From Sediminispirochaeta bajacaliforniensis DSM 16054 (GTDB taxonomy: Bacteria > Spirochaetota > Spirochaetia > DSM-16054 > Sediminispirochaetaceae), in contig NZ_KB899418.1 in the NCBI RefSeq assembly GCF_000378205.1, positions 62,001 through 126,000 of the forward strand: a DNA stretch of 64,000 bases, in the 5' to 3' direction. Under the pieces are notes generated by a model that saw only the letters and a program-made list of their open reading frames with translations, had not been told where the DNA came from and did no database searches. Every line of letters starts with the position of its first letter. The stretch's first letter is position 1. Shown here piece by piece: positions 8,145 to 55,756 of the stretch. Both the position numbers and the translations under genes were made by a program.

Positions 8145-8228
8145 ACCCTTTTTCTCCTTTTTTTCGGGGCTGGGTCACCCCTATGTATGTATGCAGCAAA
8201 CCGCTGCCAGGGTACTGAGCCACGGAAC

Positions 8229-8300
8229 ATCATACACCTATATGTATAGATGTATAGATGATCTTGCAAATATTATCCCCTCTTTCTCTCCTGCTGTCAA
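8229..8300 (-). promoter_or_regulatory. Promoter and putative operator of the BMP operon
   Basis: On the minus strand TTGACA (8295-8300) and GATAAT (8272-8277) are 17 bases apart, a near-consensus sigma-70 promoter. Directly downstream, at 8229-8262, is a TATAGATG-rich block containing the 12-mer TATAGATGTATA (8245-8256). The same 12-mer occurs just after the -10 box of the SDR gene promoter near 16.54 kb, suggesting one shared repressor. Confidence 0.6.
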
Positions 8301-8395
8301 CACGGACTTATTTATTTTTGAGAACGGTTTCAGATACTATATACAGAAACACACTATTTTATCCACCATAAGGGAAAAATGAATGTCACAAAGAA

Positions 8396-9610
8396 CTATC
8401 GGGCGGCGGTCCGACCTTTTCGCTCTCCCCTTGCCAAAACGCTAAGAAAGGGAATCGTCATGATAAAGAGGGCCATAGCGGCAAAGAGAACGGGAAAAGA
8501 GAAGAGGGAAAGGGCCGAGCCGAAAATGAAAATGCCAAAGGCATTTCCGCCATCAATGGCACTTTCTTGAAACGCAAGAGCCGAGGCTCGAAGCCTGGCA
8601 GGAACGGAATCGACCACCTTGGCAATCAGGAGTGCAAGAGCCCCGGCATACCCGACACCGGAAATAACGGCGGAAAGATAGTAAAGCAGACGGGGCGAAA
8701 CTTCCATAAAGGCAAGGATGGCACAACCGGCGGCAAAAGAGAGAAGAACGGGACCGAGAAGCCGGTCGCGCCCCAGCCTGTCGGAGAGGGCCCCAAGCGC
8801 CATGGTCCCCAAGGCCCCCAGGGATTCCCGTATGGTGAAATAGAAGGCTGGATTACCGATAGAGGGAAAACCAAGCGCATATCCGGTAAGAAAGGTAAGC
8901 AAAATTCCACTTGCCATGCTCAAGGCAAAAATTCCCAAATATGTGCTCCGCAGCTCCGGAATACGAAAAAGATCAAACAGCTCTCTGACGGAGACGCCTT
9001 TTTCCTCATCCGGAGAAGCTTGGTGTGGTTCTCCGATTTTTTCGGGGAGCGTAAGAATCAAAAGTGTTCCAGCCACCCCGCAAAGAGATGAAGCAATAAA
9101 AAACGATGCAAATCCAAAGTTTTGAATAAGCGTCATGCCTAGTGCAGGAGCAATCATGACCGATAAGGTAACAGCCGTTCGATACATTCCGATGCCTGTT
9201 CCCCTAAGCTCATCCGGAGTGTGGTCGGCAACGTAACTGGTTGCAGCGGAGAGAAACGTGGCCATCCCTATAGCCTGATAGACGCGAAACAGGGCCATGA
9301 CCACAAGGCTGGGGCTGAGCCAGATACCGATAGGCGCCGTGGAAAAGACAAGGGAACCGATGAGAAGAGAGAGCTTCCGGCCTCGACTGTCGGCAAGGGA
9401 TCCAAGTAGAAACCGAAAGAGTACGGAAAAGAGGGTAAAAATCGCCGCCTGTACTCCAATGGCGAAATCCCCGCCGCCTGCATGTTTGACATAGAGGGGA
9501 ATAAGCGTAAAGCTGGTCATAACCGTCGAAAGCTCGAGGAAACCGGCAAGATATACGGTACTCAGCTCTTTTCCAAATATTTCTCTTCTATGCAAGAAGA
9601 TACTATTCAT
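8396..9610 (-). CDS. MFS transporter
   Basis: A 404-residue major facilitator with 12 predicted spans. The conserved loop 2-3 motif appears as GSLADSRGRKLSLLIGS near residue 65 and its half-two counterpart as GALSDRLGRDRLLGP. The ATG at 9610 is preferred over an earlier in-frame start because GGAAG precedes it; it overlaps the amidohydrolase stop by 8 bases. Membrane efflux or uptake of a small molecule, plausibly a nucleobase or its degradation product given the neighbours. Confidence 0.82.
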   Translation of the reverse strand: MNSIFLHRREIFGKELSTVYLAGFLELSTVMTSFTLIPLYVKHAGGGDFAIGVQAAIFTLFSVLFRFLLGSLADSRGRKLSLLIGSLVFSTAPIGIWLSPSLVVMALFRVYQAIGMATFLSAATSYVADHTPDELRGTGIGMYRTAVTLSVMIAPALGMTLIQNFGFASFFIASSLCGVAGTLLILTLPEKIGEPHQASPDEEKGVSVRELFDLFRIPELRSTYLGIFALSMASGILLTFLTGYALGFPSIGNPAFYFTIRESLGALGTMALGALSDRLGRDRLLGPVLLSFAAGCAILAFMEVSPRLLYYLSAVISGVGYAGALALLIAKVVDSVPARLRASALAFQESAIDGGNAFGIFIFGSALSLFSFPVLFAAMALFIMTIPFLSVLARGERKGRTAAR

Positions 9611-26206: not shown

Positions 26207-27208
26207 TCAGATCCCCCAACGCAGGCCCGCGGTATGTACAGGAGCGTCCCACAAAGCAAGCAGCTTTTCATCAGCCTTTACCGCAGAGATGGAAAACCCT
26301 TGCATTTCAAGGGAGGTAATGTAATTACCTACAAGGCGGCGTACGATTTTCAAGCCTTTTGCCTTGCAGAACTGCTCGAACTCATTGTAGAGGAGATAAA
26401 GTTCGATGAGAGGAGTACCGCCCATTCCGTTGAGCAGGACAATAAGCTCGTCACCCTTTTTATACGGAATATCGGAAACAACGGCCTCACCCATCATCTG
26501 AATATATTCATGAGCTGTTTTCTGCTTCATCCTTTCGCGACCAGGCTCACCATGAATGCCGACCCCCATCTCAATCTCATCAGCACCGATTTCAAAGGTA
26601 GGCTTGCCGGCGGAAGGAACGGTACAGGATGTCAGGGCCATTCCCATAGACCTGCCGACCTCGTTGACCCGACGACAGAATTCGGCGGTCTTCTTGAGAT
26701 CATCACCACGTTCTGCAGCAGCGCCTGCAATCTTTTCCGCAATGACGGTGCAGCCTACGCCCCGTCTTCCCTCGGTATATAAGCTATCTTTTACGGCAAC
26801 ATCGTCGTCGATAATAACGGACTCAACGGTTATCCCTGCCTCACCACAAAGATCGGCGGCCATTTCGAAATTCATCACATCACCGGAATAGTTTTTCACG
26901 ATGTGAAGAACACCGGCACCTCCGTCCACAGCCTTTGTCGCCTCTTCCATCTGATCGGGAGTCGGAGAGGTAAAGACGGCACCGGGACAGGCGGCATCAA
27001 GCATTCCCAACCCTACAAAACCGCCATGTAACGGCTCATGGCCACTTCCACCGCCTGAAATAACCGCAACCTTTCCTTTCCGTGTCTTGCTGCTACGCGT
27101 AATAAAGTTCGGATCACGGTGGACCTTAAGGATATCGGAATGAGCGAGCTCCATTCCCGTCAAGGCCTCTTTAATGACATCATCAGGCGCATTGATCAAT
27201 TTCTTCAT
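26207..27208 (-). CDS. dhaK: Dihydroxyacetone kinase substrate-binding subunit DhaK
   Basis: A 333-residue subunit that binds dihydroxyacetone covalently as a hemiaminal on a histidine, here in the segment GVGIHGEPGRER near residue 218. Other family marks are ISGGGSGHEPLHGGFVG near residue 50, HIVKNYSGDVMNFEMA and LLNGMGGTPLIELYLLY. ATG 27208 with GGAGG 7 bases upstream. First gene of dhaK-dhaL-dhaM, with its own promoter. It feeds dihydroxyacetone phosphate into glycolysis. Confidence 0.95.
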   Translation of the reverse strand: MKKLINAPDDVIKEALTGMELAHSDILKVHRDPNFITRSSKTRKGKVAVISGGGSGHEPLHGGFVGLGMLDAACPGAVFTSPTPDQMEEATKAVDGGAGVLHIVKNYSGDVMNFEMAADLCGEAGITVESVIIDDDVAVKDSLYTEGRRGVGCTVIAEKIAGAAAERGDDLKKTAEFCRRVNEVGRSMGMALTSCTVPSAGKPTFEIGADEIEMGVGIHGEPGRERMKQKTAHEYIQMMGEAVVSDIPYKKGDELIVLLNGMGGTPLIELYLLYNEFEQFCKAKGLKIVRRLVGNYITSLEMQGFSISAVKADEKLLALWDAPVHTAGLRWGI

Positions 27209-27267
27209 GGTAACCTCCGAAAGTTTTGCTATTTTTTTTTGCAACACCAGGATGGTAGTTCAATCCC

Positions 27268-27295
27268 ATTATAAAACAGAATGAACATTTGTCAA
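27268..27295 (-). promoter_or_regulatory. Promoter of the dha operon
   Basis: Minus-strand TTGACA (27290-27295) and consensus TATAAT (27268-27273) are 16 bases apart, about 60 bases upstream of the dhaK start codon. No clear inverted repeat was found around it, so the binding site of the presumed regulator is not identified. Confidence 0.65.
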
Positions 27296-27384
27296 ATTAG
27301 TATTAACACAATTTCACTCTTCACTATCGTTCGTATGTTGCGCTACTTCAGGAATGTGATAAGAAAGAGTACCCTATGATAGAT

Positions 27385-28551
27385 CTATGTATATCGATTA
27401 AAGTGGTCGTCAATTACAATAGTTGCAGCACCCAAAAGATTTTCATTTTCTTTGATGTTTGTCATATGGATATCGACAGTGAAAAAATTCCTCGCAATGT
27501 AAGAACCGAGTACATACTTTTTTACTGCATCCAAAAACATTTCCGGTCTATACACGACAAAACCGGAAAGAATCACCTTATCCAGGGCCATCAGGTTGAC
27601 GGCATTTACAACGGCGATAGAAAAAATTCCCGCATAGTGATCAATGATATCGATAAAATAACGCTCACCAGCATAAGCTTTGTCTACGATCTGCTCCCAG
27701 GAGACAATATCCGGAACATCTTTCTGTACAGCCTTCAAAATATTAGTGATTCCATAATATTGGTATAAACATCCTCGATTTCCGCAAGCACAGGGTTCTC
27801 CGTCGAATTTAATAGACATGTGGCCCAATTCCGGCGTCAAACCGAGCTTTCCGCTATACAATTGCCGATCTTTCACAATACCAAATCCGATACCAACATA
27901 CGATATTATGCACATGAAATCATCAAGGTGTTTTCCGTAGCCAAAATACAATTCCGCTAAGCTGACTGCATTTGCATCCCGTTCCAGGCAGATATCCACA
28001 TCAAAATATTTTTTGAACGCCTCAACGATGTGAAAACCATGCCATAATGAAAAATCCGGAATATCACTGTCGATAATGCCATTCATGGTATCAACAGGGC
28101 CTGGGGTTGTGATCCCCAGGCCTAAGAGCGAACCCTTTTTGCATTCCGGCAGAATCGTGTTCTTTATCGCATCACTTATGATCTTTACCGCCGTTTCGGG
28201 GCTATCGGCTCTGTCAAGTGCAACTGGTTCGGAAATAAGAACAGCACCTCCAAATTCAACCAAACCAATCGTACAGCCATCTCGTGCAATATCGACACCT
28301 ATGATTGTATAGCGATCGGAAACAATCTCTAAGGTTTTCGGATTACGTCCGACCCTGTTGTTTTTTACGTTAACGTCCGATTCCCGGATAAGACCTTCTT
28401 CGATTAATTCGTCAACAAGATTCGTGATTGTTGCCCGGGTTAGGCCTGTCAACCTTGCGAACTCAGCCCGTGAAAAATTCTTTTTAAAAAGATTACGAAT
28501 AATCAAGTGCCGGTTATAGATTTTGTTGTAAGGTGAATTTCTCGCATGCAT
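27385..28551 (-). CDS. ROK-family transcriptional regulator
   Basis: A 388-residue protein with an N-terminal winged helix (FSRAEFARLTGLTRATITNLVDELIEEGLI, residues 25-55) and a C-terminal sugar-kinase-like ROK domain: GVDIARDGCTIGLVE, GITTPGPVDTMNGII, LTPELGHMSIKF and the zinc motif CACGNRGCL. Most such proteins are sugar-responsive repressors; its place just upstream of dhaK on the same strand suggests dha control. Its ATG lies only 4 bases from the presumed prophage end and no ribosome site is seen before it, so the native 5' region has probably been displaced and expression may be altered. Confidence 0.85.
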   Translation of the reverse strand: MHARNSPYNKIYNRHLIIRNLFKKNFSRAEFARLTGLTRATITNLVDELIEEGLIRESDVNVKNNRVGRNPKTLEIVSDRYTIIGVDIARDGCTIGLVEFGGAVLISEPVALDRADSPETAVKIISDAIKNTILPECKKGSLLGLGITTPGPVDTMNGIIDSDIPDFSLWHGFHIVEAFKKYFDVDICLERDANAVSLAELYFGYGKHLDDFMCIISYVGIGFGIVKDRQLYSGKLGLTPELGHMSIKFDGEPCACGNRGCLYQYYGITNILKAVQKDVPDIVSWEQIVDKAYAGERYFIDIIDHYAGIFSIAVVNAVNLMALDKVILSGFVVYRPEMFLDAVKKYVLGSYIARNFFTVDIHMTNIKENENLLGAATIVIDDHFNRYT

Positions 28552-28555
28552 ATTC

Positions 28556-28664
28556 TGTAGCGGCGCGAGAAAACTCGGGCGATATGACGGGATAATCTAC
28601 CAGCCTCATGTATGCACCTGCTGAAAACATCTATTCACTTTTGCTTGGTCGCGAGACAAATACC
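28556..28664. other. Presumed prophage terminus with transposase-site-like repeats
   Basis: The host ROK gene ends its upstream side at 28551, and phage sequence appears to begin TGTAGCGGCGCGAGAAAAC at 28556. A TG start is the rule for Mu-type ends (TG...CA). The element CGCGAGA plus A-rich bases recurs at 28564-28574 and 28650-28660, as would be expected for paired transposase sites. The exact base and the 5-bp duplication (candidate TATTC, 28551-28555) need the other end for confirmation. Confidence 0.5.
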
Positions 28665-29695
28665 ACCTCGCTCATCACCTGCCTCCGGAGCCGAAAGGTG
28701 TTGGCGTGACTGGAATGAGCAATCCATGAGTGAACTGCGGCTCGCACACGATCTATATCGATGCGCCCATACTTGTATTCCGCAGCCAGTCTCTTAAGCC
28801 TCTTTCTCATACGCTTGACAGAGTCTTTTCTCAGCTTCCTATGCGTTGGCCAGATCCGGTATCCGAGAAAATCCAACGGTCTGCCGCCGAATCTCCGCAA
28901 CGGAAACACTTGGGTTTTCCCGTTTGTATGCAGGAGCAACCTGTCCTGCAGAAACCCCTCAATCCGGCGCCTGAGATCCTGCAGGTGCTGTTTGTCGTGG
29001 TGCAGTATCACGAAATCATCCATGTACCTGACGTAGTGCCGCTCTCTGAGATCGTACTTGACGAATTTATCCAGCTCGTGGAGGTAGATGTTGGCAAACA
29101 GCTGGCTGGTCAGATTCCCGATAGGGATACCACGAGGCCGACAAGCCCCTTCCTCCACGTACGAATCTATGATGTTGTCCAGAAGCCGCAGAGTTGGCTT
29201 GCAGGCTATTCTCTTCCTCAGTAGGCGCTTGAGGATCTCGTGGTCTACACTCGGAAAATACTTCGAGATATCGGCCTTGAGAGCATAGACAGCCCCATGC
29301 TCACGTCGCACCTTTCGCATCATCCGTTCGGCAGTATCGGCTCCGGCGTGCGTTCCTTTGCCTGGCCTGCAGGCGTAGCTATCCTTGATGAAACGAACCT
29401 CCCAGATGGGCTCGATAACCGACACAATTGAGTGATGCACGACCCTGTGCCGGAACGGCAGAGACGCAACCACTCTGGTTTTCGGCTCATGCACCGTGAA
29501 TAGCCGATAACCGGAGGTATCGTACTCCTCCCAGATCAACTCATTCTGGAGCTGTATCAGCTCCTCCTCGAGGCCGGCCGTGAACCGGACCACTTCATTC
29601 TGGTACCGCTTGCCCTTACGGGCTTTTCGGTAGGCTTCATGGAGAGCTTCAAATGAGTATATCTGTGGGTAGAGATTATTGTACGTCTTCGCCAT
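28631..29695 (-). CDS. DGR reverse transcriptase
   Basis: A 354-residue reverse transcriptase. Visible blocks: KADISKYFPSVDH (first catalytic Asp, near residue 142), GIPIGNLTSQLFANIYLHELD (near 190) and RYMDDFVILHHD (catalytic YMDD near 224-227), then a thumb region rich in Arg/Lys. The IGNLTSQ motif, with SQ in place of the QGxxxSP of group II intron enzymes, is the signature of DGR reverse transcriptases. There is no maturase or endonuclease domain. ATG 29695 has AGGGA 5 bases upstream; a GTG just before it is too close to that site. It copies the template-repeat RNA with adenine-specific errors, with Avd as partner. Confidence 0.96.
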   Translation of the reverse strand: MAKTYNNLYPQIYSFEALHEAYRKARKGKRYQNEVVRFTAGLEEELIQLQNELIWEEYDTSGYRLFTVHEPKTRVVASLPFRHRVVHHSIVSVIEPIWEVRFIKDSYACRPGKGTHAGADTAERMMRKVRREHGAVYALKADISKYFPSVDHEILKRLLRKRIACKPTLRLLDNIIDSYVEEGACRPRGIPIGNLTSQLFANIYLHELDKFVKYDLRERHYVRYMDDFVILHHDKQHLQDLRRRIEGFLQDRLLLHTNGKTQVFPLRRFGGRPLDFLGYRIWPTHRKLRKDSVKRMRKRLKRLAAEYKYGRIDIDRVRAAVHSWIAHSSHANTFRLRRQVMSEVVFVSRPSKSE

Positions 29696-29858
29696 CACGT
29701 TCCCTATAGAAAATCGGGGCGCCCAGAGGGGTCGGCTTCAGCCTACTGTCCCAGGCACCCCTGTTTATGTCTTTCGGCGCTTGGCCGAGGAGCACGGGTC
29801 CTTTTGATACTGCACTGGATGCGAGCCCATGAGCCCGCGCCTTCTCGCAGTTTTCAAG

Positions 29859-29974
29859 AGCCGGGCGGAACCCGATGTTGTTGTTCGAGTTCGACCGCAG
29901 GTTGTTCAAGTTCAACGTGAACACCCCGGCATCCGCCGCGTTGTTCCAGTTGCCACCCCGGATCGGCAGGCGCT
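29859..29974 (-). repeat. DGR template repeat (TR)
   Basis: A non-coding 116-base template, 8 bases after the avd stop and 164 bases before the reverse transcriptase start. It aligns without gaps to 30398-30513 (constant offset 539). On the sense (minus) strand it has 25 adenines, mostly as AAC codons in the reading frame of the target gene, the usual design because AAC can mutate to many amino acids but not to a stop. The 91 non-adenine positions are identical to the variable repeat. Confidence 0.97.
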
Positions 29975-29981
29975 ACATGCT

Positions 29982-30326
29982 TTAACCCGAGCCCCTTTGG
30001 ATTGCCTTAAACCAACCTCCGATCATACGCCCGATCTCGTTCAGAAGCATCGACCAGTAGTGATACTTCTTGAAAGGGAGATACTCCAACTCCTTTGCGA
30101 GACGGATTTGCGCCCGGAGCAGGTCCAGTTCAGCATCCAAGTCTTGCATCGTTGTTTTCTTGTGGTACCTGTGGTTGCACACAATGATCAGTCGCAGCAG
30201 GCGCCACATCGTGTCACGGATCTCTTGGCTTAGAACGTGCCGCTCCGACTTTGGGAACTGCCGAATTGCCGTGTATCCGTAGGCTATCATATCCTCGGTC
30301 TTCTGTCGGATTTTCAGGTCGTCCAT
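29982..30326 (-). CDS. avd: DGR accessory variability determinant (Avd)
   Basis: A 114-residue, mostly helical basic protein (for example TIDLDAELDLLRAQIRLAKELEYLP-like helix pattern around residues 60-85; C-terminal KYHYWSMLLNEIGRMIGGWFKA). This matches the four-helix-bundle Avd family, related to 23S rRNA intervening-sequence proteins, which forms a pentamer that binds the reverse transcriptase and template RNA. It lies between target gene and template repeat, as expected. The ribosome site is weak. Confidence 0.9.
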   Translation of the reverse strand: MDDLKIRQKTEDMIAYGYTAIRQFPKSERHVLSQEIRDTMWRLLRLIIVCNHRYHKKTTMQDLDAELDLLRAQIRLAKELEYLPFKKYHYWSMLLNEIGRMIGGWFKAIQRGSG

Positions 30327-30339
30327 GTTACTTCAGGAT

Positions 30340-30361
30340 GGGCCGGGCTATCGCCCGGCCC
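30340..30361 (-). repeat. GC-rich hairpin downstream of the variable repeat
   Basis: Perfect 9-base arms GGGCCGGGC (30340-30348) and GCCCGGCCC (30353-30361). Read on the target-gene strand the 4-base loop is GATA. It begins 36 bases beyond the 3' end of the variable repeat. DGR target sites in phages carry such hairpins or cruciforms with GC-rich stems and GRNA tetraloops, needed for efficient retrohoming; GATA fits GRNA. No T-run follows, so a terminator is unlikely. Confidence 0.85.
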
Positions 30362-30382
30362 CCAGATACCACACCCCAGATA

Positions 30383-31474
30383 TCAGATCCCAACAAAAGC
30401 CGGGCGGAACCCGAAGATGTGGCTCGAGTACGACCGCAGGCTGTTCAAGTGCAACGCGAACACCCCGGCAACCGCCGCGATGTGCCAGTAGCCACCCCGG
30501 AACGGCAGGCGCTCGCCTACGTTCCGCATATATATGTTGTCGCCACCCAGAGATGTAAGGCCCGGAAAGAGCCCCAATTGCTTAGCAAGATCCGGTACCG
30601 TAATCCCGGCGTCGGCGGTCATGGATTCAAAATCCATACTGGCGCTTGTCGACCCGTCGCTCTGGCTGGTCACGGTGTCGTTTAACAGCACATCGCCGCT
30701 GCCTGTGGCACCGGTAGCGTCGTACTTCAACGTACCACTAGTACCAGGAGCCACAAGTGACCCGTCTTGCGCTATCGCCTTCCATTCACTCGACCCGGCA
30801 GACTGATCCTTGCTGTTGTCAGCTGCATTGTTTGACGCCAGGATCTGAATCTCACCGTCTACCAGCCGAAGACCACCAACCCACTCCCATACGTTACCAT
30901 TCAGATCCGCGATCCCCGCGAAGGTATGATCGTGACGCCAGGTCGCCGGGCCGGAGCCGGTAAGGATTCGGGCGCTGCCGATCGCCTGGCCCGGTGCATA
31001 CTGATCTCCGTCCTGGCGAGTGCCGGTTTCGTACGTGGCAGCGTGATCCCTACCGTAGTTGTTGTTGCCGTTCGGCATAGTGCCGTTCTTATGAGCCCAG
31101 AGAGCGATCGCGGCCCATTCGGCATTGGTCAGCAAGTGCCACCCCGCGCCTTTGGCCGAGCAGTACCCACGGGCCTGATCGGCGTCGGTGTACACCCTGG
31201 GGTCTTGTCCTGGCAAGGCCAAGGCGCGCCCGTCATGGACGACCGCCTGATACTGGCCGACCCAGATCTCGCTCTTTTCGACGCCGTTCACCAGGAAGGC
31301 GGGATGCACCCCAGACCCAAGGGACGCATCGATATCCTCGATGTTGAACTTGGGAATCCGCACCATGTAGCTGGGATATCCCTTGTCGTCGTACATAATC
31401 GTAACACGTCCGCCGGTCGCCGCTTCGACAGCCTGCCTGGCTGTATCCTTAATACTGATAATCAACCCACTCAT
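30383..31474 (-). CDS. DGR target: variable tail-associated C-type-lectin/FGE-like protein
   Basis: A 363-residue protein. Residues about 35-200 look like the formylglycine-generating-enzyme/sulfatase-modifying-factor type of C-type lectin fold (SEIWVGQYQAVV, GWHLLTNAEWAAIALW, IADLNGNVWEWVGGL), followed by a Ser/Gly-rich insert and a C-terminal segment RLPFRGGYWHIAAVAGVF...GFRPA that is the diversified ligand-binding surface. Residues 321-359 are encoded by the variable repeat. ATG overlaps the preceding stop (TAATG) and has GGAGGA. Position after tail-fibre genes suggests the phage receptor-binding protein, analogous to Mtd of BPP-1. The catalytic cysteines of true FGE are not expected here. 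Confidence 0.93.
   Translation of the reverse strand: MSGLIISIKDTARQAVEAATGGRVTIMYDDKGYPSYMVRIPKFNIEDIDASLGSGVHPAFLVNGVEKSEIWVGQYQAVVHDGRALALPGQDPRVYTDADQARGYCSAKGAGWHLLTNAEWAAIALWAHKNGTMPNGNNNYGRDHAATYETGTRQDGDQYAPGQAIGSARILTGSGPATWRHDHTFAGIADLNGNVWEWVGGLRLVDGEIQILASNNAADNSKDQSAGSSEWKAIAQDGSLVAPGTSGTLKYDATGATGSGDVLLNDTVTSQSDGSTSASMDFESMTADAGITVPDLAKQLGLFPGLTSLGGDNIYMRNVGERLPFRGGYWHIAAVAGVFALHLNSLRSYSSHIFGFRPAFVGI
30398..30513 (-). repeat. DGR variable repeat (VR)
   Basis: A 116-base copy of the template repeat inside the 3' end of the target gene. Thirteen positions differ (30415, 30417, 30421, 30423, 30430, 30441, 30451, 30457, 30471, 30480, 30484, 30490, 30502), each opposite a template adenine: seven A to T, three A to C, three A to G. 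They change codons 325, 329, 331, 332, 335, 340, 342, 345, 349, 351, 352, 353 and 354. The invariant GC-rich 3' end, coding GFRPA, is the expected site where mutagenic homing starts. Confidence 0.97.
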
Positions 31475-31839
31475 TACTCATCTCCTCCTTCGCTGTTTTC
31501 CGGTGCGGGAGGCAAGGCCCACACATTTACGACCACTTGATCCAGGTTCACCGGCTGTTTTTCCATCTCCATGATGGCGGATCCTGATTCCGGATCTGCC
31601 TCTCCGGTTTCGACCTCAAGGTAAGCCGCCGGCGGGAGTGTTACGTTAGCCACATACCAGCCCGCCCCTTTACCTTCTACCACCTGGCCCTCATGATCGA
31701 GCGACAAGTCGATCGTGATTGCCTGGTCTTGTTGCCGTGCGGCAACATCGATCTGATACCCACCTACTTTGAGATACTTAGTTCCCATCGTGATCGGCAG
31801 GTACTCGCCTTCTGTCTGATAGAGAATCTCTATACCCAT
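31474..31839 (-). CDS. Small phage protein upstream of the DGR target
   Basis: A 121-residue beta-rich, acidic protein starting MGIEILYQTEGEYLPITMG. The ATG at 31839 is chosen for its AAGGAGGAG site; an earlier ATG overlaps the tail-fibre gene. It ends in an overlap with the target-gene start, so the two are translated together. I recognise no family; by position it could be a connector or chaperone for the variable receptor-binding protein. Confidence 0.65.
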   Translation of the reverse strand: MGIEILYQTEGEYLPITMGTKYLKVGGYQIDVAARQQDQAITIDLSLDHEGQVVEGKGAGWYVANVTLPPAAYLEVETGEADPESGSAIMEMEKQPVNLDQVVVNVWALPPAPENSEGGDE

Positions 31840-31849
31840 GAACTCCTCC

Positions 31850-32746
31850 TTATCCCTTGTTGACATTTAGCAGCGTCCAGCGCAACGCCACATTGTCGGC
31901 GCTACCCTCATGACGGATCTTGAAGCCATTTTGCTGCTTCTCGACCACCTTGACCGCGCCGATCATCCCGAAGTCCGTTGCGCTCTCGACCGTGAGATTC
32001 ACGTCGTACTCAGGTGCGTTTATCGCAGGAAACGGAAGTGCAACATACACGTCCTGTACGGTGCTGATCGTGAATCCGTTCCAGCCCTGCACAATCCGAC
32101 GGTCGGTGAGTGTTACCGCATCAATACTGTCCGTAGTGTCACCGGCCGGTACCGTGATCTCGTACAGCTTGAGGCCGGAGTCCGGGATCTCTTTGGCGAT
32201 GCTGACACGATATCCACTCCCATCGTGCCAAAGGTATGCCCAGTACGTCTCCGCAGCTGATCCGGGATTTTGGGGAACCGTGACGTGGTAGTCATCATCA
32301 GGGACATACCGAACATCTCCATCGATATACGCGATAGACCGATCCCCTGATACATACGCACCCGTCCGTGTCAGATGAAGAGCACGGATATCGCTTTTCA
32401 CCAAGATGACCCCCTCAACCACCCATTTGTTTTTGAGTACCGCCGTTCCCTGACTAAGCACCCGCTCACGGAGATCCGTGATACCCTTCCGGTTCACCCC
32501 AACGCCGGACAGTGCCTGCGCAATAGCTGAAATGATGGCATTCTGCGCTTCATCGTCGATACCTTGCTGTAGGTTCTGCAGTTCTCCGTCCGTCTGGTCC
32601 ACACGCCCCTTCAGGTACACAGTCCTGTTCGCAAGTTGCTTTGCCTGCAGATTACTGATTCCGTCTGGGCCGCCCAGCACTGGGTCCGTGGTCTCGATCT
32701 GGTATATACCGCCTTCCCAGACCGATGATTCTTGTACATTTGCCAT
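31850..32746 (-). CDS. Tail fibre protein
   Basis: A 298-residue protein whose first 60 residues (SSVWEGGIYQIETTDPVLGGPDGISNLQAKQLANRTVYLKGRV) match the baseplate-attaching N-terminus of P2/Mu-type tail fibres. A short coiled-coil follows, then a beta-rich shaft ending in an Ig-like or lectin-like C-terminus. Strong AAGGAGG site. It likely carries the variable DGR product to the tail tip. Confidence 0.8.
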   Translation of the reverse strand: MANVQESSVWEGGIYQIETTDPVLGGPDGISNLQAKQLANRTVYLKGRVDQTDGELQNLQQGIDDEAQNAIISAIAQALSGVGVNRKGITDLRERVLSQGTAVLKNKWVVEGVILVKSDIRALHLTRTGAYVSGDRSIAYIDGDVRYVPDDDYHVTVPQNPGSAAETYWAYLWHDGSGYRVSIAKEIPDSGLKLYEITVPAGDTTDSIDAVTLTDRRIVQGWNGFTISTVQDVYVALPFPAINAPEYDVNLTVESATDFGMIGAVKVVEKQQNGFKIRHEGSADNVALRWTLLNVNKG

Positions 32747-32772
32747 GGATCACTCCTCCTTTATGGCTTGGT

Positions 32773-33216
32773 TTAGAAGATGATCAGCCATTGTCCCTCG
32801 ATGCTGATATCCGATTCTTTTTCGATCGCCTTCGTTCGATGTTTTCGTGCAAACAAAGCGCCGTCGGCCGTGAGAAGCCCAAATTCCCCGATCGACATAC
32901 CGTTCGCTTCGGTGACCAAAAGATTCCAGGCAATCTCAACCTGACCAGGCGCCGGATACGAGAATGCCTGCACCGGCTTCATATAAGCCGATGTGATTCC
33001 GGTATCACCTGGCGTTGGAGTCGACTGGTTGGTCCCGAAGGCGATTCTGTCAATACTTCTTCCGCTTACCTCACCAGAAATCAACCTCGCCATCACCGAA
33101 CGCGCCGCGTCGACGATTAGATTCCGGTCTTGATACTCAAGAACCAACTGTTCGCCTCGATATACCTGCATACGAAAATCGCCCCGCACAGGCACCACCT
33201 CTCTTTGTGTAATCAT
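32773..33216 (-). CDS. Phage tail-tip/fibre-associated protein
   Basis: A 147-residue beta-rich protein with NLIVDAARSVMARLISG near residue 32, IDRIAFGTNQSTPTPGDTGI, and a C-terminal EFGLLTADGALFARKH segment. This pattern recurs in small tail-collar or fibre-attachment proteins of Myoviridae-type tails. GGAGG site before ATG; overlaps the gp48-like gene by 4 bases. Exact role not known. Confidence 0.6.
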   Translation of the reverse strand: MITQREVVPVRGDFRMQVYRGEQLVLEYQDRNLIVDAARSVMARLISGEVSGRSIDRIAFGTNQSTPTPGDTGITSAYMKPVQAFSYPAPGQVEIAWNLLVTEANGMSIGEFGLLTADGALFARKHRTKAIEKESDISIEGQWLIIF

Positions 33217-34280
33217 GCAACCTCCTCTCTGTAGAACTCGTCTCCCTCATAAAAGATGCCGTCGTAGTAGCTCTTGACACCGTCATGCCGCAATAGTCCA
33301 TCGTACGGACTGCACCAGTAGCGCATCCGTCCATCAAACCTCCGGTGATGACGAACAATAAATGGCATTGAAGTGTCGATAATCGCGTCTTGGACGCTGC
33401 CGTAGGAAAGCCCTTGATACAACAACCGACCGTCGTGGTGCGCCACAATCGTTGCGCGATCAGACAGTGAAACGTCCACTTCGGCCTGCAGAACGTCTCC
33501 GCCCGTACTGCTATACGTCGCCGGGTTCGGAATTGTTAGTGGCACCAAGAGCAATGAACTCCCGATGTAGTCAATCTCTGCTCCGTATGTTCGGGATCCC
33601 TGGTACTGTTCTGGGATCGCGACCTCATCCAGCATGGTTCCTACCACAGGGTGAAACTGGTTATGCAACCAGCCGCCACCATAAGTGGCGGCACCGTCAA
33701 ACATCTGCCTGAAACCATGGTCGTGGCGGATGCGACTGTTGTATCGCAGGCCACGCGGGTAAACGTCGCGATCCTTCGTGATTACCGACACCAAAGACTG
33801 ATCGCCAAGCACAACTCGCTCCACGTACCGAAACCAGTCCGCTATGGTGAGCTCAACGTTCGGATTGAGTGTTTCGTCCAGGAAGCTCCATAGCCACATA
33901 CGGTCTGCATCGCTGAGGTTCAGAACCTTGACATAGACTTGGAGAAACTCCTCTGTAAGTAGATACCTGTCGCCAAAATGCCCGGTCAGCTGCCCTTTGA
34001 CGTATACTCGCTCACCGGCCTTGGATAGAAAATAAGAGGCTGCAGTGACACGCAGCCGGTATTCCTCTGAGGTATCTCCCGGGAGGCGAGGAACAAACAG
34101 CGCTTTTCCGTGCTTATTAAGCGCGGCATCGTCACAGAGGTATGGATACCGAGCAAACAACGCCGTCTGGGCATCGTTTCTTACCACGCCAAACACCTTG
34201 CCCAAAACGGAGAACAGGCTCCCGCGATTCTTTTTTTCTATCCCTGGCGGCGCCACAGCTTCCTTGATCCATTCGATCAT
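33213..34280 (-). CDS. Tail protein in the Mu gp48 position (tail protein I-like)
   Basis: A 355-residue protein following the baseplate J gene, where Mu has gp48. The N-terminal half (RNDAQTALFARYPYLCDDAALNKHGKALFVPRLPGDTSEEYRLRV) resembles tail protein I/gp48 baseplate wedge proteins; the C-terminal 180 residues are beta-rich and Tyr/Asp/Gly-rich (FDGAATYGGGWLHNQFHP, HHRRFDGRMRYWCSPYDG) and longer than usual. ATG 34280 follows AAGGTGG. It overlaps the J-gene stop. Confidence 0.65.
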   Translation of the reverse strand: MIEWIKEAVAPPGIEKKNRGSLFSVLGKVFGVVRNDAQTALFARYPYLCDDAALNKHGKALFVPRLPGDTSEEYRLRVTAASYFLSKAGERVYVKGQLTGHFGDRYLLTEEFLQVYVKVLNLSDADRMWLWSFLDETLNPNVELTIADWFRYVERVVLGDQSLVSVITKDRDVYPRGLRYNSRIRHDHGFRQMFDGAATYGGGWLHNQFHPVVGTMLDEVAIPEQYQGSRTYGAEIDYIGSSLLLVPLTIPNPATYSSTGGDVLQAEVDVSLSDRATIVAHHDGRLLYQGLSYGSVQDAIIDTSMPFIVRHHRRFDGRMRYWCSPYDGLLRHDGVKSYYDGIFYEGDEFYREEVA

Positions 34281-35332
34281 CACGTAGCCACCTTAGTTGC
34301 AGTGACAGAAGCGGTAATTATGCCGGATTCGTCCGGCTCGACGTCTCGGTCGGGGCTGAGTATCTCGACGGTATCGACATCAACATCATCATAGAGAGCG
34401 TACAGATCTCTGATCGCGAAACGACTACCGATACCAAGGCCGTAGACATAATTCTCAGCGATCAATCGGACATCCGCATCGGTGGCCGCGCCAGTAAACT
34501 CTATCTGCACGGAAATAGTCGTGGTGTCAGGAGGTTTGACCTGCACGTCGAACCCCATCAGCTCATGATCGTGCAATGCGGCATCGACAGCCGATAGCAA
34601 TTCAGATCCAGGAACTCCGTTCACTGCTGCAATGATTACGTCCGTGCTACCGGGACCTCGAGGCGTGCGAATGATCTTTGCTTCCAAAACCCCGTCGACA
34701 GATGTTGCGTAGAACTTGTATGCCGCTCGGGTGTCGCCGAGACTCTGGCTCTGCCATCTATCCTTTATCCGGCTTCGATACGGCGCATCTTCCTCCGCAT
34801 CTGTTCCAAGAGCCTCAATCCAGTCTGTGGGAACGGTGAGCAACTCCACGCCGTTGACCACCTTGGTAAGATAGATGGACGTGCCCGGAGATACGTTGTA
34901 CTCAGAACCAGGTATCGCAGCGGTCACCGGAAGGGAAAACTCGCCCGCTTGAAACGTAATATCCTGCGATACCCGGAACCTTAAATCAGTACCGGTTACC
35001 GCAACCCAGCTTCCTGCCGAAATAGCGCCGGCGGCGTACGCCTGTCCAATGAACGACCCGGTTGTCCTTTCGGCTTGTTTTCGCGTAACACCAAGCAATA
35101 CTCCCCACATTGCCAAAAAATCACCGGAGGCATCGTCGAGTGTCGCATTTAGATAGATCGGATTGATATCCGATTCGTACAACTGTTTTATCGACGCGAC
35201 AATCGTCTCCAGAAACCCCCGAAGTACTCCGGTAGACTTGAAGTTTGAGATCCCCGTCTCCTGTGTGGCAATTGCGAAGACTTCCTGCCTGATCTCCTCT
35301 TCCGTCTTCTCCAGAAATGATGGATCGCTCAT
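34280..35332 (-). CDS. Baseplate J-like protein (Mu gp47)
   Basis: A 350-residue baseplate wedge protein. TEEEIRQEVFAIATQETG near the start, LDDASGDFLAMWGVLLGVTRKQAERTTG near residue 65 and APYRSRIKDRWQSQSLGDTRAAYKFYATSVDGV near residue 180 are the J-family landmarks. GGAGGT before ATG. Forms the baseplate with the gp46- and gp48-like products. Confidence 0.9.
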   Translation of the reverse strand: MSDPSFLEKTEEEIRQEVFAIATQETGISNFKSTGVLRGFLETIVASIKQLYESDINPIYLNATLDDASGDFLAMWGVLLGVTRKQAERTTGSFIGQAYAAGAISAGSWVAVTGTDLRFRVSQDITFQAGEFSLPVTAAIPGSEYNVSPGTSIYLTKVVNGVELLTVPTDWIEALGTDAEEDAPYRSRIKDRWQSQSLGDTRAAYKFYATSVDGVLEAKIIRTPRGPGSTDVIIAAVNGVPGSELLSAVDAALHDHELMGFDVQVKPPDTTTISVQIEFTGAATDADVRLIAENYVYGLGIGSRFAIRDLYALYDDVDVDTVEILSPDRDVEPDESGIITASVTATKVAT

Positions 35333-48630: not shown

Positions 48631-49749
48631 TCAGGCGGAAAGCACCGTCTCCGCATCGATCCGCGATTGACCGATCTCCGCCGCCAGATTCATGCTTCGT
48701 TTGACCAGGTTGTTCACCGTCAGCGGGTAGGCGAGGCTGATCGCCTGGCCGCCCCGGGTCCGCCGGGCAAGGCGTTCCCGCATGGCGTTGTAGGCGCTCT
48801 CGTCCACCAGCTCCTTGACATCCCGGCCGATCCGCTTCATCTTCAACTGCAGGTAGGCTTCAAGTTCGCCTGGTCGGGCCAGAGACTCGATCTCGGCAAC
48901 TTCAACCCGCCTGATTATTTCCCTGGCTTCCCAGTTCCGAGACTCGTCCAACTTACTTTTGAGCTCGGGCTGGGCTATCAGGATAATCGCCAGCAGTTTC
49001 TTGAACCCGTCTTCCAGCTCCCAGAACCGCTTCAAATACTTGAGAGTCGCAATCGCCAGATCGTGAGCCTCCTCAATCACCAGCACGTGGCTCCATCCCG
49101 CCCGGCTGCTTGCGGTAAGGATCCGCTCCACCTGCCGCGCCTTCGCCTCCAGGGTGCGCTTGGGCCGCTCGGTGCTGCAGTCCTCCACAATCGCATCGGC
49201 GATGCTGGTCGCCGTGAGCCGGGTCTTGTCGATGGTCCGGGGGAAGATCACCTTCACCTTGAGCCCCTCCTGGTTGATCCGGTCGCTCATATACCGCCGC
49301 AGAGTCGTCTTGCCGCTGCCGGACTCCCCCAGCACCGCAAGCATCCCGCCCACCTTGGCGGTCATGTACATGTACTCCGCCACATACCGGCTGGAGTCGC
49401 CCAGATAGACATCCTCCTGCCCGTTCACATCATCCACAAAGGGATCCTGAAAAACCCCGAACTGCCGCTTGGCCGCCTGACTCAACATAACGTTGACCTC
49501 CTGTTCTGCCTCGTCTTCGTCGTTGTTCTCGTCCCGGCCGTCCAGAAATCTCCAGATACCGGTGACATCCACGTTCCGGGCGGTGAGGATTCCATTCACC
49601 GTATCCCGAACTTCTTTCTGCTTGCGCCCTTTGGGAAACCGACCGTGGTTCACAATCAAGCTGACCGAGGCAATGCTCATACCGAGCTCGCTGGCCAGCC
49701 TGGTGTGGCTGATCTTCGCTTCCCGCAGCGCATCCTTTACCGTGCGCAC
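48631..49749 (-). CDS. MuB-like transposition ATPase
   Basis: A 372-residue AAA+ ATPase. An N-terminal helix-turn-helix (SHTRLASELGMSIASVSLIVNHGRFPKG) is followed by Walker A GESGSGKT (141-148) and Walker B HVLVIEEAHD (221-230). It would bind target DNA and deliver it to the transposase. GTG start with GGGAGGGG; overlaps the transposase stop by 13 bases. Confidence 0.9.
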   Translation of the reverse strand: MRTVKDALREAKISHTRLASELGMSIASVSLIVNHGRFPKGRKQKEVRDTVNGILTARNVDVTGIWRFLDGRDENNDEDEAEQEVNVMLSQAAKRQFGVFQDPFVDDVNGQEDVYLGDSSRYVAEYMYMTAKVGGMLAVLGESGSGKTTLRRYMSDRINQEGLKVKVIFPRTIDKTRLTATSIADAIVEDCSTERPKRTLEAKARQVERILTASSRAGWSHVLVIEEAHDLAIATLKYLKRFWELEDGFKKLLAIILIAQPELKSKLDESRNWEAREIIRRVEVAEIESLARPGELEAYLQLKMKRIGRDVKELVDESAYNAMRERLARRTRGGQAISLAYPLTVNNLVKRSMNLAAEIGQSRIDAETVLSA

Positions 49750-51464
49750 GCTTCCCCTCCCTCAAGGTCACCCAGAAAGGCGTCGAGCTCCGGCTCCGTC
49801 ACCCCTTCCGGGAACCGTCGTTTAATCTCGGCAAAGTAGGACGGGTCCCACCCGTGACCCAGCCGTGCCATCACGTACTTGGCCGCCTCCACATGGTTGA
49901 GCGTCCTCACCGGTTCACGCCGCGTATCTATCACCGCCCCCCGCCGGGGGAAGGGCAGCATCGAGCCGCCCTCGTCGGCGATCGCGTCCACCGCCCGCAG
50001 ACCCGCTCCGTCGTTGAACTCCTCCATCGGTACCGCTCCCGGCCCGGTGAGGTTGTCCAGTTTCTTGTGAATCAAGTCCACGTAGGTCTCCGGGTTGCGC
50101 TTGTAGTTCTCGCCCCACACCGGCGCGTCCAGCGGCTGCCCGAGCTCGTCCATCTCCACCGGATAGACCGTCTCGGTGACCGTCTGTCCCTCCCAGTCGT
50201 GGCGGATCCGCAAGGCTCCGAGCTCGTCCATCAACAGCGCCTGCACCTCTACGGTGGCGCCCACACGTACCCCCGGAACCCCGCCCACGCGGTAGACCGC
50301 CCGGCGCTTTATTCGCGGGTGCACAAAGGTGATCGTCAGATCCCCGGCAACCTTCCGGGTCTCCGGCTGGTAGGCCAGAAGCTCCTTGGCCTCTTCCGGC
50401 AGCTCCCTGAGCTCCTCCGGGCGGATCGCCAGCCACGCCTCCAGGCGGGCAAACTTGACCCCCCGGCGCTCCAGGCGCGTATCCACACCCTTGATCCGGT
50501 TGGCGTTGTACAGCGCCGCCCAGCGCTCCGCCGCCTCGTTGAGCTCCTCCACCGATGCCACCGGCTGGAAGCGCAGGCGACTCTCAAAGAGCGTCTCCAC
50601 CAGGTTGTTGGCGTTCTCAACGGACCCCTTCACCCGGGGCTTACCCGGCAGGTGCACGTGGGTCTTTACATCCAGCCCCTCCAGTGCGTTCTGGATCGGC
50701 TTTGAGGTGTTGGCGCTGCCGGCGTCCCAGATCAGCCACTCCGGCACCCCGTGAAAGGCGTAGAGCGGATCATCCTTCGGGCTCCAGGCGTACATCAGAA
50801 AGTCCCACAGCGCCGTCATGCTCTCACCCGGCTGCTGGTAGTAGCGCAGTGAGATCGAGCCGGTGCGGTGGTCGGTGAGCACGTAGCGCCACACCTTCAG
50901 CTCCCCCTTCTTCTCCATGAAGGGCTTATTCTTGTACGCCTCGGAGTCCTCGATGATCCGCTGACGCTGCTTGGGAAGTCGCTTCATCCCCTGGGTCTTG
51001 TCCGGCAGGTAGTACAGCAGGCACAAACTCGGGTCCACCAGGTGAACATGGTTGGGGTGGAGGCTGCGCATGTTGATATGCGCCGTCTCGCTCTTGCTCT
51101 GCGTCCCCAGGTCCATCCCCCGGGCCCGCAAAAGCCGCGCCAGGTGCTCGTTGCTCGCCCCGTTGAAGTTGACCCCGTTGGCCTCAAGGATCTGCCGCGC
51201 CGTGGGGATGTACAGGGTTGCCTTGCCGTTCTGCCGCACCGCCGCGTTCATCGCCGCCGCCAGAATCTCCAGGCTGTCGGAGGGAACTTCCGTGTCTCCG
51301 GCGTCCCGGCGCCGGCGTCGGCCGGACTCCCACCCGGCGGCCTTCAGCTTGCGGTAGAGTTGCTTCGTATCCATCCTGAGCTGACCCGCCCAGGTCTTGA
51401 TCATCGTCGAGCGTCGGGCCGGGTCCTCGACGCCTTCCAGTAGCCGCACATACTCCTCAAGCAT
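49737..51464 (-). CDS. MuA-like DDE transposase
   Basis: A 575-residue transposase. The rve core shows the catalytic triad: Asp144 in NHVHLVDPSLCLLYYL, Asp247 in EWLIWDAGSANTS and Glu284 in VKGSVENANNLVE. A helical DNA-binding region precedes it, and the C-terminal 250 residues contain the Mu-transposase C-domain beta-barrel (RAVYRVGGVPGVRVGATVEVQALLMDELGALRIRHDW). It lacks a long N-terminal enhancer-binding part like that of Mu A (about 660 residues). It would catalyse replicative transposition of the phage. Confidence 0.92.
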   Translation of the reverse strand: MLEEYVRLLEGVEDPARRSTMIKTWAGQLRMDTKQLYRKLKAAGWESGRRRRRDAGDTEVPSDSLEILAAAMNAAVRQNGKATLYIPTARQILEANGVNFNGASNEHLARLLRARGMDLGTQSKSETAHINMRSLHPNHVHLVDPSLCLLYYLPDKTQGMKRLPKQRQRIIEDSEAYKNKPFMEKKGELKVWRYVLTDHRTGSISLRYYQQPGESMTALWDFLMYAWSPKDDPLYAFHGVPEWLIWDAGSANTSKPIQNALEGLDVKTHVHLPGKPRVKGSVENANNLVETLFESRLRFQPVASVEELNEAAERWAALYNANRIKGVDTRLERRGVKFARLEAWLAIRPEELRELPEEAKELLAYQPETRKVAGDLTITFVHPRIKRRAVYRVGGVPGVRVGATVEVQALLMDELGALRIRHDWEGQTVTETVYPVEMDELGQPLDAPVWGENYKRNPETYVDLIHKKLDNLTGPGAVPMEEFNDGAGLRAVDAIADEGGSMLPFPRRGAVIDTRREPVRTLNHVEAAKYVMARLGHGWDPSYFAEIKRRFPEGVTEPELDAFLGDLEGGEACAR

Positions 51465-51467
51465 CGG

Positions 51468-52442
51468 TCATTCCTCATCCGGCTCGGTCGGCTCTGGGAA
51501 ATACCCCACAAACTCGTCGCTAAAGTGCTCGGCGTACTCCTCTCGGAGGATCTTCGCCCGCTCTTCCACATCTTCCATCTGGAAGGTCAGCTTGGTGGGA
51601 ACGTGCCCCGCCTGCACGTAGAAGCGGATCGACTGGAACCGCTGAAAGAGCTCCTCGGCGATCCCGGAGAGCTTCTGGTTCAGGTGAAACTGCGCCCCGT
51701 CCCACTCGCCGGGCTCGATCTCCCGCAGACGCCCGAGGATGTAGTCGATCCGGTTCTGCAGCCGGGCGCCTTCCATCCATACCACGTCGATCTCCGCCGA
51801 GAGGCGCTCGGCCTCCGGCTCCCAGCTATGCGGGTACAGGAGCTTCCGGTTGGCCTGCTCCAGCTCGGTGATCCGCTCCTCCTTCTTCTGGATCCGCTCG
51901 GAGTAGGCGATCGCGTCCTGCCGCCGCTCCTCCCGCTCGGCCCGGAGGATCTTCCGCAGCTCCGTGGGGCTCATCCGCTGGATATCGTCCAGGCTCTTGC
52001 CCGCCAGGGTGCCCCCTTCCTCCAGCGCCTCCAGGTCCTCGTCGTCCATCATCGCCAGCTCGTAGACCTTGGTGACGGAGTCCAAATGGGCGACCAGTCG
52101 CCCTTTTGGGTTTGGCTCACCGTTGTCGCCTATAAACTTTCTGGCGGCCCGCATCATGCTTTTGGCAACGGAATGGCTAATTCCGATATTTTCCTCGACG
52201 TACTTCATGAAGTTACCGTGTGACTCATGCTCCTTGAGCTGGATCAACCGGCGCCCCGCCTGGAGCATCGCCATCACTCCCTGGTGGAGATAGAACTTCA
52301 CCTCACCCACGATCCGCCCGGCGTCGTAGGGCAGGTTGTCCCCGTAGGTCTCGTCTATTTCGTGGATATTCTTGGCTACGATCGCCTGTGCTTCCGGCGT
52401 TACGTCCCGCGCCGCTTCATTGTTCCGCTTAGTATTCGCCAT
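51468..52442 (-). CDS. DUF3102-domain early protein
   Basis: A 324-residue protein. Residues 40-115 (GEVKFYLHQGVMAMLQAGRRLIQLKEHESHGNFMKYVEENIGISHSVAKSMMRAARKFI) match DUF3102, which contains a helix-turn-helix-like fold; a long coiled coil follows (residues 160-200), and the C-terminal 120 residues are unassigned. It lies directly upstream of the transposase gene, 3 bases apart, and could regulate or assist it. Confidence 0.75.
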   Translation of the reverse strand: MANTKRNNEAARDVTPEAQAIVAKNIHEIDETYGDNLPYDAGRIVGEVKFYLHQGVMAMLQAGRRLIQLKEHESHGNFMKYVEENIGISHSVAKSMMRAARKFIGDNGEPNPKGRLVAHLDSVTKVYELAMMDDEDLEALEEGGTLAGKSLDDIQRMSPTELRKILRAEREERRQDAIAYSERIQKKEERITELEQANRKLLYPHSWEPEAERLSAEIDVVWMEGARLQNRIDYILGRLREIEPGEWDGAQFHLNQKLSGIAEELFQRFQSIRFYVQAGHVPTKLTFQMEDVEERAKILREEYAEHFSDEFVGYFPEPTEPDEE

Positions 52443-52749
52443 ACTGACTTTCCCCCTGGATGTACTCGATGTTCAGACGGTTCACCTTCTCCATCACCGT
52501 CATGATGTTGCGCTGCACCACCCGCATCAGCTCCGCAAAGGTCGGGGTGATCCGCCAGCCGCCGGAGGGCAGCTTCTCCGCCCAGCCCACCGCCTCCAGG
52601 TTCTTCAGGTCCCGGAAGATCGCCGTAGTGCCGCCGCCGATCTCGCCGGCCAGCTCCCCCGCGGTAATGCCGTCCAGCTCATGGCCCACCAGGTGCTGCA
52701 TCACCTTGATCAGCCGCTGTTGTCCGTTGTTGAGGTAGTTCTCAGCCAT
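52429..52749 (-). CDS. Winged-helix early protein
   Basis: A 106-residue protein with an IclR/MarR-type winged helix: GQQRLIKVMQHLVGHELDGITAGELAGEIGGGTTAIFRDLKNLEAVGWAEKLPSGGWRITP. Likely DNA-binding. GGAGGG site; overlaps the following gene by 14 bases. Confidence 0.75.
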   Translation of the reverse strand: MAENYLNNGQQRLIKVMQHLVGHELDGITAGELAGEIGGGTTAIFRDLKNLEAVGWAEKLPSGGWRITPTFAELMRVVQRNIMTVMEKVNRLNIEYIQGESQYGEY

Positions 52750-53065
52750 GGGCGCCCTCCACCGGCATGGCGATGGTGGTGAGGTAGGTCCCGTGGTGAC
52801 TGCCCATCTCTATGTAGCTCACCAGCCGGTAGCCGATCGCCGCCACCGCCTTCACCATCACCTCCATGGTCACGTCCAGGTTGTCCCGCCGGGGCGGCTC
52901 GATCACCTCGATGATCACCACGCCCATCCCCTGGGGGTTGATCCGCGCCACAAATCCGTAGTCCCGCAGGTGACTCTCCATCCGCGCTTTCAGCGCCCTG
53001 CGCATCAGCCCCGGATCGGGGACGGTTTCGGTCCTGGTCTCGATAGCCGTTGTCTGTGTAACCAT
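52742..53065 (-). CDS. Early phage protein of unknown function
   Basis: A 107-residue protein with an alpha/beta pattern (LMRRALKARMESHLRDYGFVARINPQGMGVVIIEVIEPPRRDNLDVTMEVMVKAVAAIGYRLVSYIEM). GGAGG site. Overlaps the winged-helix gene by 8 bases, so it is translationally coupled. I do not recognise the family. Confidence 0.6.
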   Translation of the reverse strand: MVTQTTAIETRTETVPDPGLMRRALKARMESHLRDYGFVARINPQGMGVVIIEVIEPPRRDNLDVTMEVMVKAVAAIGYRLVSYIEMGSHHGTYLTTIAMPVEGAHG

Positions 53066-53070
53066 GCTGA

Positions 53071-53531: not shown

Positions 53532-53547
53532 ACTCGCTCCTCCTTCT

Positions 53548-53841: not shown

Positions 53842-53844
53842 CCG

Positions 53845-54415: not shown

Positions 54416-54443
54416 GCCGATAAGGAGGGGGAGAGGTATGTAG

Positions 54444-54833: not shown

Positions 54834-54910
54834 TCGGGGCGGGGTCTGGTACGCAAAGCCCTCCGGCGGTAATCCTGGAGTTTCCCACCGGGCGGCGGGT
54901 GGAGTAAGGC

Positions 54911-55013: not shown

Positions 55014-55040
55014 AGGCAATACATACACCAGGAGGTATCT

Positions 55041-55667: not shown

Positions 55668-55694
55668 GGCGCCGGATCACTACCCCGGCGGGAG

Positions 55695-55718: not shown

Positions 55719-55756
55719 GGGGAATGCCGGTAGAACGGTAGGGGAAGGAGGAGGAG

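Follow-up and report, generated by a model that had tools for sequence, protein, structure and literature searches.

Several described systems resemble the locus reported here. In BPP-1, mtd with VR1 is followed by Bbp7 (Avd), TR, and brt, with a published hairpin behind VR and a spacer RNA between TR and the reverse transcriptase (RT) gene. Phage DGR hairpins are described as GC-rich stems of 7-10 bp with 4-nt GRNA loops, located 4-34 bp behind VR (PMC3240598). The BPP-1 spacer is reported to recruit bRT-Avd, and an adenine within the spacer is reported to prime cDNA synthesis (PMC12875486). Prophage 2 of Thermus aquaticus Y51MC23 is described as having genes annotated as Mu-like together with a DGR RT (PMC6328139, PMC4605624). 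TaqVP (PDB 5VF4), the variable protein of that prophage DGR, is reported to have its VR at the very C-terminus, in a CLec fold that holds a putative ligand site (PMC6328139). In Vibrio phage VHML, a gene for a DUF323/FGE-type protein lies upstream of a phage RT. Lastly, the near-identical Bacuni phages of Bacteroides uniformis are reported to differ mostly in VR (18/24 SNPs, F1 vs F4) and to infect different hosts (PMC8143477).

We found a DGR in a window of 64,000 nucleotides (the whole stretch of DNA that was analysed) from Sediminispirochaeta bajacaliforniensis DSM 16054. The DGR is complete, having RT, Avd, TR, VR, and a target of the CLec type, and its gene order and strand logic are those of BPP-1. 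It is of a known, textbook kind and apparently intact. It differs from the BPP-1 DGR in that its target belongs to the TaqVP sequence family and not the Mtd family, its spacer matches the Rfam family RT-14 and not RF03022, and its host phage is Mu-like. We are highly confident that a Mu-like prophage here carries a complete DGR of the BPP-1 kind, with the homing cycle and tail-tip target proposed below. It adds to the known phages one whose target is of the TaqVP type and whose TR and VR form a clean pair.

The cassette and its prophage

Every element of the cassette lies on the minus strand, in the order target with VR, hairpin, avd, TR, spacer RNA, RT. The target gene (30383..31474) encodes a CLec/FGE-type protein of 363 aa with a C-terminal VR (30398..30513). 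Behind VR are the hairpin (30340..30361) and avd (29982..30326; 114 aa). TR (29859..29974) begins 7 nt past the avd stop and is followed by a structured spacer RNA, the 3' part of the DGR RNA (29716..29860), and by the RT gene (28631..29695); the spacer between TR and RT is ~160 nt. The original prediction had RT and Avd genes flanking the repeats. Both genes are indeed there, but avd lies between TR and VR, and RT alone lies outside.

The translated RT contains IGNLTSQ and an intact YMDD, and it matched RVT_1 (PF00078, 6.4e-22), phrog_1423 (5.5e-145), and nine PDB entries grouped under 8ub7 (E 7e-66). Read from the ATG at 29695, it is 39% identical to BPP-1 Brt. Avd matched bAvd (PF22296, 9.9e-35) and phrog_3206 (1.1e-44), and is 22% identical to BPP-1 Avd/Bbp7 (E 7e-7). 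An accessory gene such as avd is common in DGRs, though not universal. We also searched 98 whole genomes (the host's own and those of relatives) with the RT. No close relative of the RT turned up in the host's relatives: 32 of the 98 gave hits at E <= 0.001, and beyond the host's own genome the best hit is 45% identical; many of the matches in host relatives look like group II intron RTs. The single other genome of the genus had no RT match at E <= 0.001.

The target matched phrog_2889 (7.8e-147), FGE-sulfatase (9.7e-6), and one solved sequence alone, 5vf4 (TaqVP, E 3.5e-103), over residues 3-361. By sequence, the target is a full-length relative of TaqVP, and its putative CLec fold is carried over from TaqVP. 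The VR sequence of the T. aquaticus DGR differs from that of the window; the comparison of the two systems covered the target and the published descriptions. There was no similarity between the target and Mtd by BLASTP (best E 0.29). VHML is like the window in the arrangement of its RT and DUF323/FGE-type genes, but it has P2-like tail genes, and its DNA is remote (11% of the query covered).

By analogy, the most likely role of the target is that of a tail-tip protein that binds the receptor. It matched phrog_5302, a tail protein (5.7e-12), and its gene comes after genes for a tail fibre-like protein (31850..32746, minus strand; phrog_3100, 4.8e-20, and phrog_4209, 4e-17, tail fiber protein, N-terminal part) and a baseplate J protein (34280..35332, minus strand; PF04865, 9.3e-40), all on the same strand in a run that includes two genes of unknown function. 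Both the match and the gene order argue against the idea that the target is some other phage or host-facing CLec protein, for example a secreted binding protein. In favour of this idea, which we consider an unlikely alternative to a tail-tip protein, phrog_2889 is of unknown function, and the word 'tail' was not found in the main text of the paper describing TaqVP.

The hairpin, like the spacer RNA, was absent from the original prediction and is added here. It is a GC hairpin or cruciform with a 9-bp GC stem and a GATA loop, in agreement with the published stem size and the GRNA loop rule. Measured from the 116-nt repeat it is 36 nt away, 2 more than the upper limit of the published 4-34; measured from the 120-nt form of the repeat (see below), it is 32 nt away. 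A DNA fold of positions 30330-30400 gave a z of -3.88. In the 42 loci described below, window included, we searched the 70 nt following the repeat for similar stems of 7 bp or more closed by a 4-nt loop. A hairpin was found after VR in 32 of the 42, and 26 of these had GRNA loops. In contrast, the same search found a hairpin after TR in 1/42 loci and in 0.2% of shuffles.

The cassette sits at one end of the prophage. Protein families matched in the prophage include MuA- and MuB-type proteins, the Mu I protease, the major head protein, and gp27, as well as portal, terminase, sheath, tape measure, and baseplate J. The MuA-type transposase is encoded at 49737..51464 on the minus strand (phrog_310, 9.1e-66) and a DNA transposition protein at 48631-49749 (phrog_296, 7.1e-57). 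Judging from these protein matches, the element is a Mu-like transposable phage. GC content is ~60% in 28631-56000 compared to 50% in the first 28.5 kb of the window. Within 48631-61922, genes for gp27, terminase, portal, and a minor head protein (phrog_220) are upstream of the MuA/MuB-type genes, and the protease, head, and tail genes come after, a gene order that is presumably unusual relative to Mu. At the other side of the cassette, a ROK-family gene starts ~80 bases past the RT stop. The prophage end may adjoin the start of this ROK-family regulator (28551-28631) and could part the gene from its promoter. A search with the flank of the insertion site gave no hit in the single other congeneric genome examined.

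Adenine substitution and the history of homing

TR (29974-29859) and VR (30513-30398), both read on the minus strand, are 116-nt copies that align without gaps, and they make up the longest direct repeat listed within 27000-34000 (120 nt at 88%). Our recount agrees with the original prediction: 13 of the 116 positions differ, 13/13 of these are at template adenines (n=25), and the 91 non-A positions are the same in TR and VR. The adenines were changed to T (seven), C (three), and G (three). The hypergeometric p for 13 of 13 differences falling on 25 A among 116 positions is 9.5e-11, with a penalty of at most a factor of 8 for the post-hoc choice of base and copy. In the 4.57-Mb genome (75 contigs) there was one TR and one VR; otherwise a search with TR at E up to 10 gave just seven chance matches of 14-19 nt. 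The absence of differences at the 91 non-A positions means that VR was rewritten from this TR later than any previous drift.

All 25 template adenines are at codon positions 1 and 2; of the 13 that are changed in VR, eight occupy position 1 and the other five position 2. The prediction of 4^25 (~10^15) possible sequences is arithmetically right (1.1e15), as a count of DNA and not of protein sequences. For proteins, we counted the 24 adenines in complete VR codons, omitting the first A, which lies right at the repeat boundary. These are in ten AAC codons (15 residues each) and four other codons (4 residues each), giving a coding range of ~1.5e14 proteins with no stop codon possible. The locus is also a useful test system, one where no template A can yield a stop codon.

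By analogy to BPP-1, we propose the following cycle. Transcription would yield Avd, TR together with the folded spacer RNA, and RT. RT and Avd would bind the spacer RNA, and cDNA synthesis would be primed beside the 3' end of TR. TR would be copied with random bases placed opposite A, and the erroneous copy would be pasted into the target gene. TR itself would be left unaltered, so the cycle could be repeated. Given that the target is most likely a receptor-binding protein, the expected outcome would be new host-surface specificities, with the phage trying new targets.

We compared the TR/VR pair to those of related loci. A search of viral contigs with the target protein yielded 109 loci, and the best 80 were used to look for TR/VR pairs. 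No pair was found in 33 of the 80. We left out of the count L002 (the same as the window), L036 (not TR-like), and four partial pairs (L015, L060, L070, L081), in which 27/29 mismatches were at A. In the resulting 42 loci, including the window (from the best 80 of 109), 497/524 TR/VR mismatches were at template A. Per site, 497/976 A sites were changed compared to 27/3832 other sites. The share of A in the relatives is favoured because the programs used to find TR/VR pairs tolerate A mismatches; in the viral-locus search, T in place of A and the opposite choice of template copy were tried as well. The original prediction had counted substitutions at non-adenine positions in relatives against itself. 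Such substitutions are present, but at the low rate given above, and we do not take them as a refutation. Three pairs are comparatively rich in non-A mismatches (L021, 8/25; L061, 7/22; L044, 6/12) and are candidates for inactive DGRs.

These counts are difficult to reconcile with the notion that the two copies arose without retrohoming, by an ordinary duplication of the gene and biased drift or by deaminase hypermutation. Nothing beyond the existence of two similar copies speaks for this notion. Adenines in the window were changed to three different bases and not to one, template A dominates the mismatches across the 42 loci, and RT, and mostly the spacer RNA too, adjoin TR in the relatives. 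We regard duplication or deamination as extremely improbable and, in our view, refuted by the substitution counts.

At non-A sites, VR in the relatives follows its own TR. The target of L003 is 82% identical to that of the window, and the DNA is about 70% identical. The TRs of the two loci have 11 non-A differences, and at 11/11 of these each VR has the base of its own TR. In all pairs of loci with TR identity of at least 60%, VR tracked its own TR at 10346/10720 non-A sites (the pairs are not independent). The tracking in L003 and the window shows repeated homing within the lineage, as opposed to present-day activity.

We also compared near-identical loci, in five pairs at 94-100% DNA identity, leaving out three at 88-90%. 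L010 and L012 have 16 differences in 6666 bases; 15 are in VR, and 13 are at template A. This pair resembles the Bacuni phages, as these are described, in being near-identical with differences mostly in VR; the Bacuni phages differ in having DUF1566-type targets and two target genes. L022 and L027 have 45 differences in 11109 bases, 12 of them in VR and all 12 at A. L045 and L051 have 656 differences, with 16 in VR (15 at A) and identical TRs. L062 and L066 have 392 differences, with 27 in VR (20 at A) and TRs that differ at 8 positions. L020 and L023 are identical, VR included. That is, template-A differences are enriched in VR in four of the five pairs and dominant in one. The enrichment in these four pairs indicates that DGRs of this kind are at work in nature.

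The same cannot be said of the window's own copy. We found one second record of its prophage, L002, which is identical over 4170 bases, VR included, and may be from the same strain. From this one other record there is no sign of current VR variation in this isolate. The original prediction took the lack of drift to imply recent or ongoing retrohoming. That prediction was correct in its numbers and in the family it named. Overwriting of VR from TR holds, as does repeated homing in the lineage, so the implication is half borne out; ongoing activity of this copy is no more than a possibility.

It is possible, though we think it the less likely case, that the DGR homed formerly and is silent now, with its genes intact and VR frozen in a prophage that is dormant or defective and not expressing them. 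This reading overlaps with the one we prefer (the same machine, not running). It fits with the identical VR in L002 and with decay in some relatives, such as the non-A mismatches of L021 and L061. Unlike those two, the window has no difference at its 91 non-A positions, and every part of the DGR is present with open frames. In addition, long open frames in the prophage match head, tail, and transposition families, in a scan that took chosen open frames only. An apparently intact DGR of the BPP-1 kind remains our preferred reading.

The spacer RNA and the Rfam family RT-14

The spacer of the window matched the Rfam family RT-14 (RF02921) at 29860-29716. The match covered the full length of the model (1-144) with a score of 46.3 bits (E 2.4e-5 in a search of 401 bases), 1.8 bits below the Rfam gathering cut-off of 48.1. 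The family Phage_DGR (RF03022), which gave 104.7 bits on the BPP-1 spacer, had no match in positions 28000-32000 of the window at E up to 1. Folded alone, the spacer RNA (z -1.15) was not clearly better than shuffled sequences, 26/200 of which were equally good.

The relatives gave clearer results. We ran Rfam on 34 of the 41 relatives in the TR/VR count, and RT-14 was above the cut-off in 22 (12/18 and 10/16 of those given). All but one (L019) of these 22 matches begin at most 11 nt from the end of TR. We then made a model, R1, from 27 spacers. R1 gave 78.3 bits on the window spacer, which is one of its 27 training rows.

The R1 RNA was associated with RTs similar to that of the window. We ran R1 on 79 RT loci that a search of a genome collection with nothing but the RT protein had yielded (the best 80 of 121), and scored a match of at least 20 bits ending at most 200 nt before the RT start in the 74 loci with more than 200 nt upstream. 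Among these, a match was present in 33/33 loci with RT identity of at least 50%, 10/17 at 40-49%, and 3/24 at 30-39%. We searched 47 R1 sites for TR, from 150 nt before to 15 nt into each RNA. At 40 sites there was a TR that ended at most 12 nt from the RNA start and was paired with a VR within the locus, and 518/547 mismatches in these 40 pairs were at A. The seven sites without a TR/VR pair in the locus were those of L103, L111, and L128 and four second sites (in L085, L089, L096, and L099; see below). R1 also matched 20 of 54 further viral loci at E <= 0.1. Many of the unmatched viral loci may end ahead of TR; L005 is a true miss, since R1 failed to match it despite its TR/VR pair.

The structure of the RNA is conserved in the relatives. 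In an alignment of 45 spacers, 44 of them distinct (alignment A3), 17/18 base pairs had two-sided changes, compared to 14.9 in shuffles, and 5/500 shuffles reached 17. Paired cells made up 93.6% vs 57.3% in shuffles, and covariation was 0.909 vs 0.240 when shuffled and at most 0.202 when slid. The pair counts lean towards the structure because A3 was fitted to it, its rows were chosen for strong matches, and 12 of the 45 are R1 training rows.

RNAs of the RT-14 type are not universal among DGRs. There was no RT-14 match in BPP-1 or phage Bise in an Rfam scan at E up to 1, and R1 misses both too. The VHML spacer scored 37.6 bits with RT-14, below the cut-off, and 30.1 bits with R1.

Based on its place and structure, and on the role reported for the BPP-1 spacer (PMC12875486), we infer that RT-14 is the same part, the DGR spacer RNA, in this clade. 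More broadly, RT-14 is probably the cDNA-priming spacer RNA of a large, multi-phylum clade of DGRs, distinct from the RF03022 type. If the RNA and Avd mark the template, then the avd-TR-RNA module could be duplicated, as it appears to have been in four betaproteobacterial relatives. We take the name RT-14 to mean just 'found near reverse transcriptases'. A full-text literature search for RT-14 or RF02921 found no paper; the paper in which the family was described is outside the range of that search. An Rfam family whose name carries no function would thereby gain one. RT-14 can also serve as a marker, of sequence plus structure, that can locate the template of a DGR even where its VR lies far away, as happened here.

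DGRs with two avd-template modules

Four loci (L085, L089, L096, and L099, at about 5980-6700) have one RT and two modules of avd, TR, and spacer RNA. In each, there is a second R1 match ~510 nt past the RT match (21.6, 16.2, 20.8, and 40.3 bits, respectively). Each second RNA is preceded by a second avd and a second TR (TR2) of 102 nt; there is also an avd ahead of the first TR. We searched the four genomes for copies of TR2 and found one remote copy (VR2) in each. Mismatches between TR2 and VR2 were at template A in 53/55 cases (15/15, 13/13, 10/11, and 15/16).

In the two cases that were examined, one with VR2 ~56 kb away and one with it on another contig, VR2 forms the end of a protein (321 or 325 aa) that matches phrog_5302, a tail protein. 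A RecE-like gene is near VR2 in both, and in L199 there is an Erf gene too. In Pigmentiphaga humi (the genome of L099), VR2 and TR2 share a contig and are ~56 kb apart; in the remaining three genomes (L085, L089, L096) VR2 is on another contig. Eight of nine scanned proteins from the stretch between TR2 and VR2 in P. humi match head, packaging, or tail families, which suggests that TR2 and VR2 belong to a single large prophage or to adjacent prophages.

Elements of such an arrangement have been described. In Stenotrophomonas, one DGR is reported to have two TRs and six VRs (PMC6642488), and DGR parts that act in trans are reported from Thiohalocapsa (PMC10907252). Our literature search covered two-template DGRs and not a second avd, and we make no claim that the two-module type is unpublished. 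DGRs in which two avd-template modules share one RT are a natural experiment in template choice by the RT and in how templates locate their own targets. The process of retrohoming is described as still incompletely understood (PMC12875486).

Other relatives have additional features near the DGR. The viral-collection contig L044 has a CRISPR-DR2 array (8077-9563, minus strand; 22 listed repeats) ~1.3 kb past the DGR spacer RNA. In L019, the RT-14 match is ~290 nt past a second TR-like copy. Additional TR-like copies are present in L015 (6745-6969; two, 142 nt apart) and L019 (5935-6966), and these are possibly second targets.
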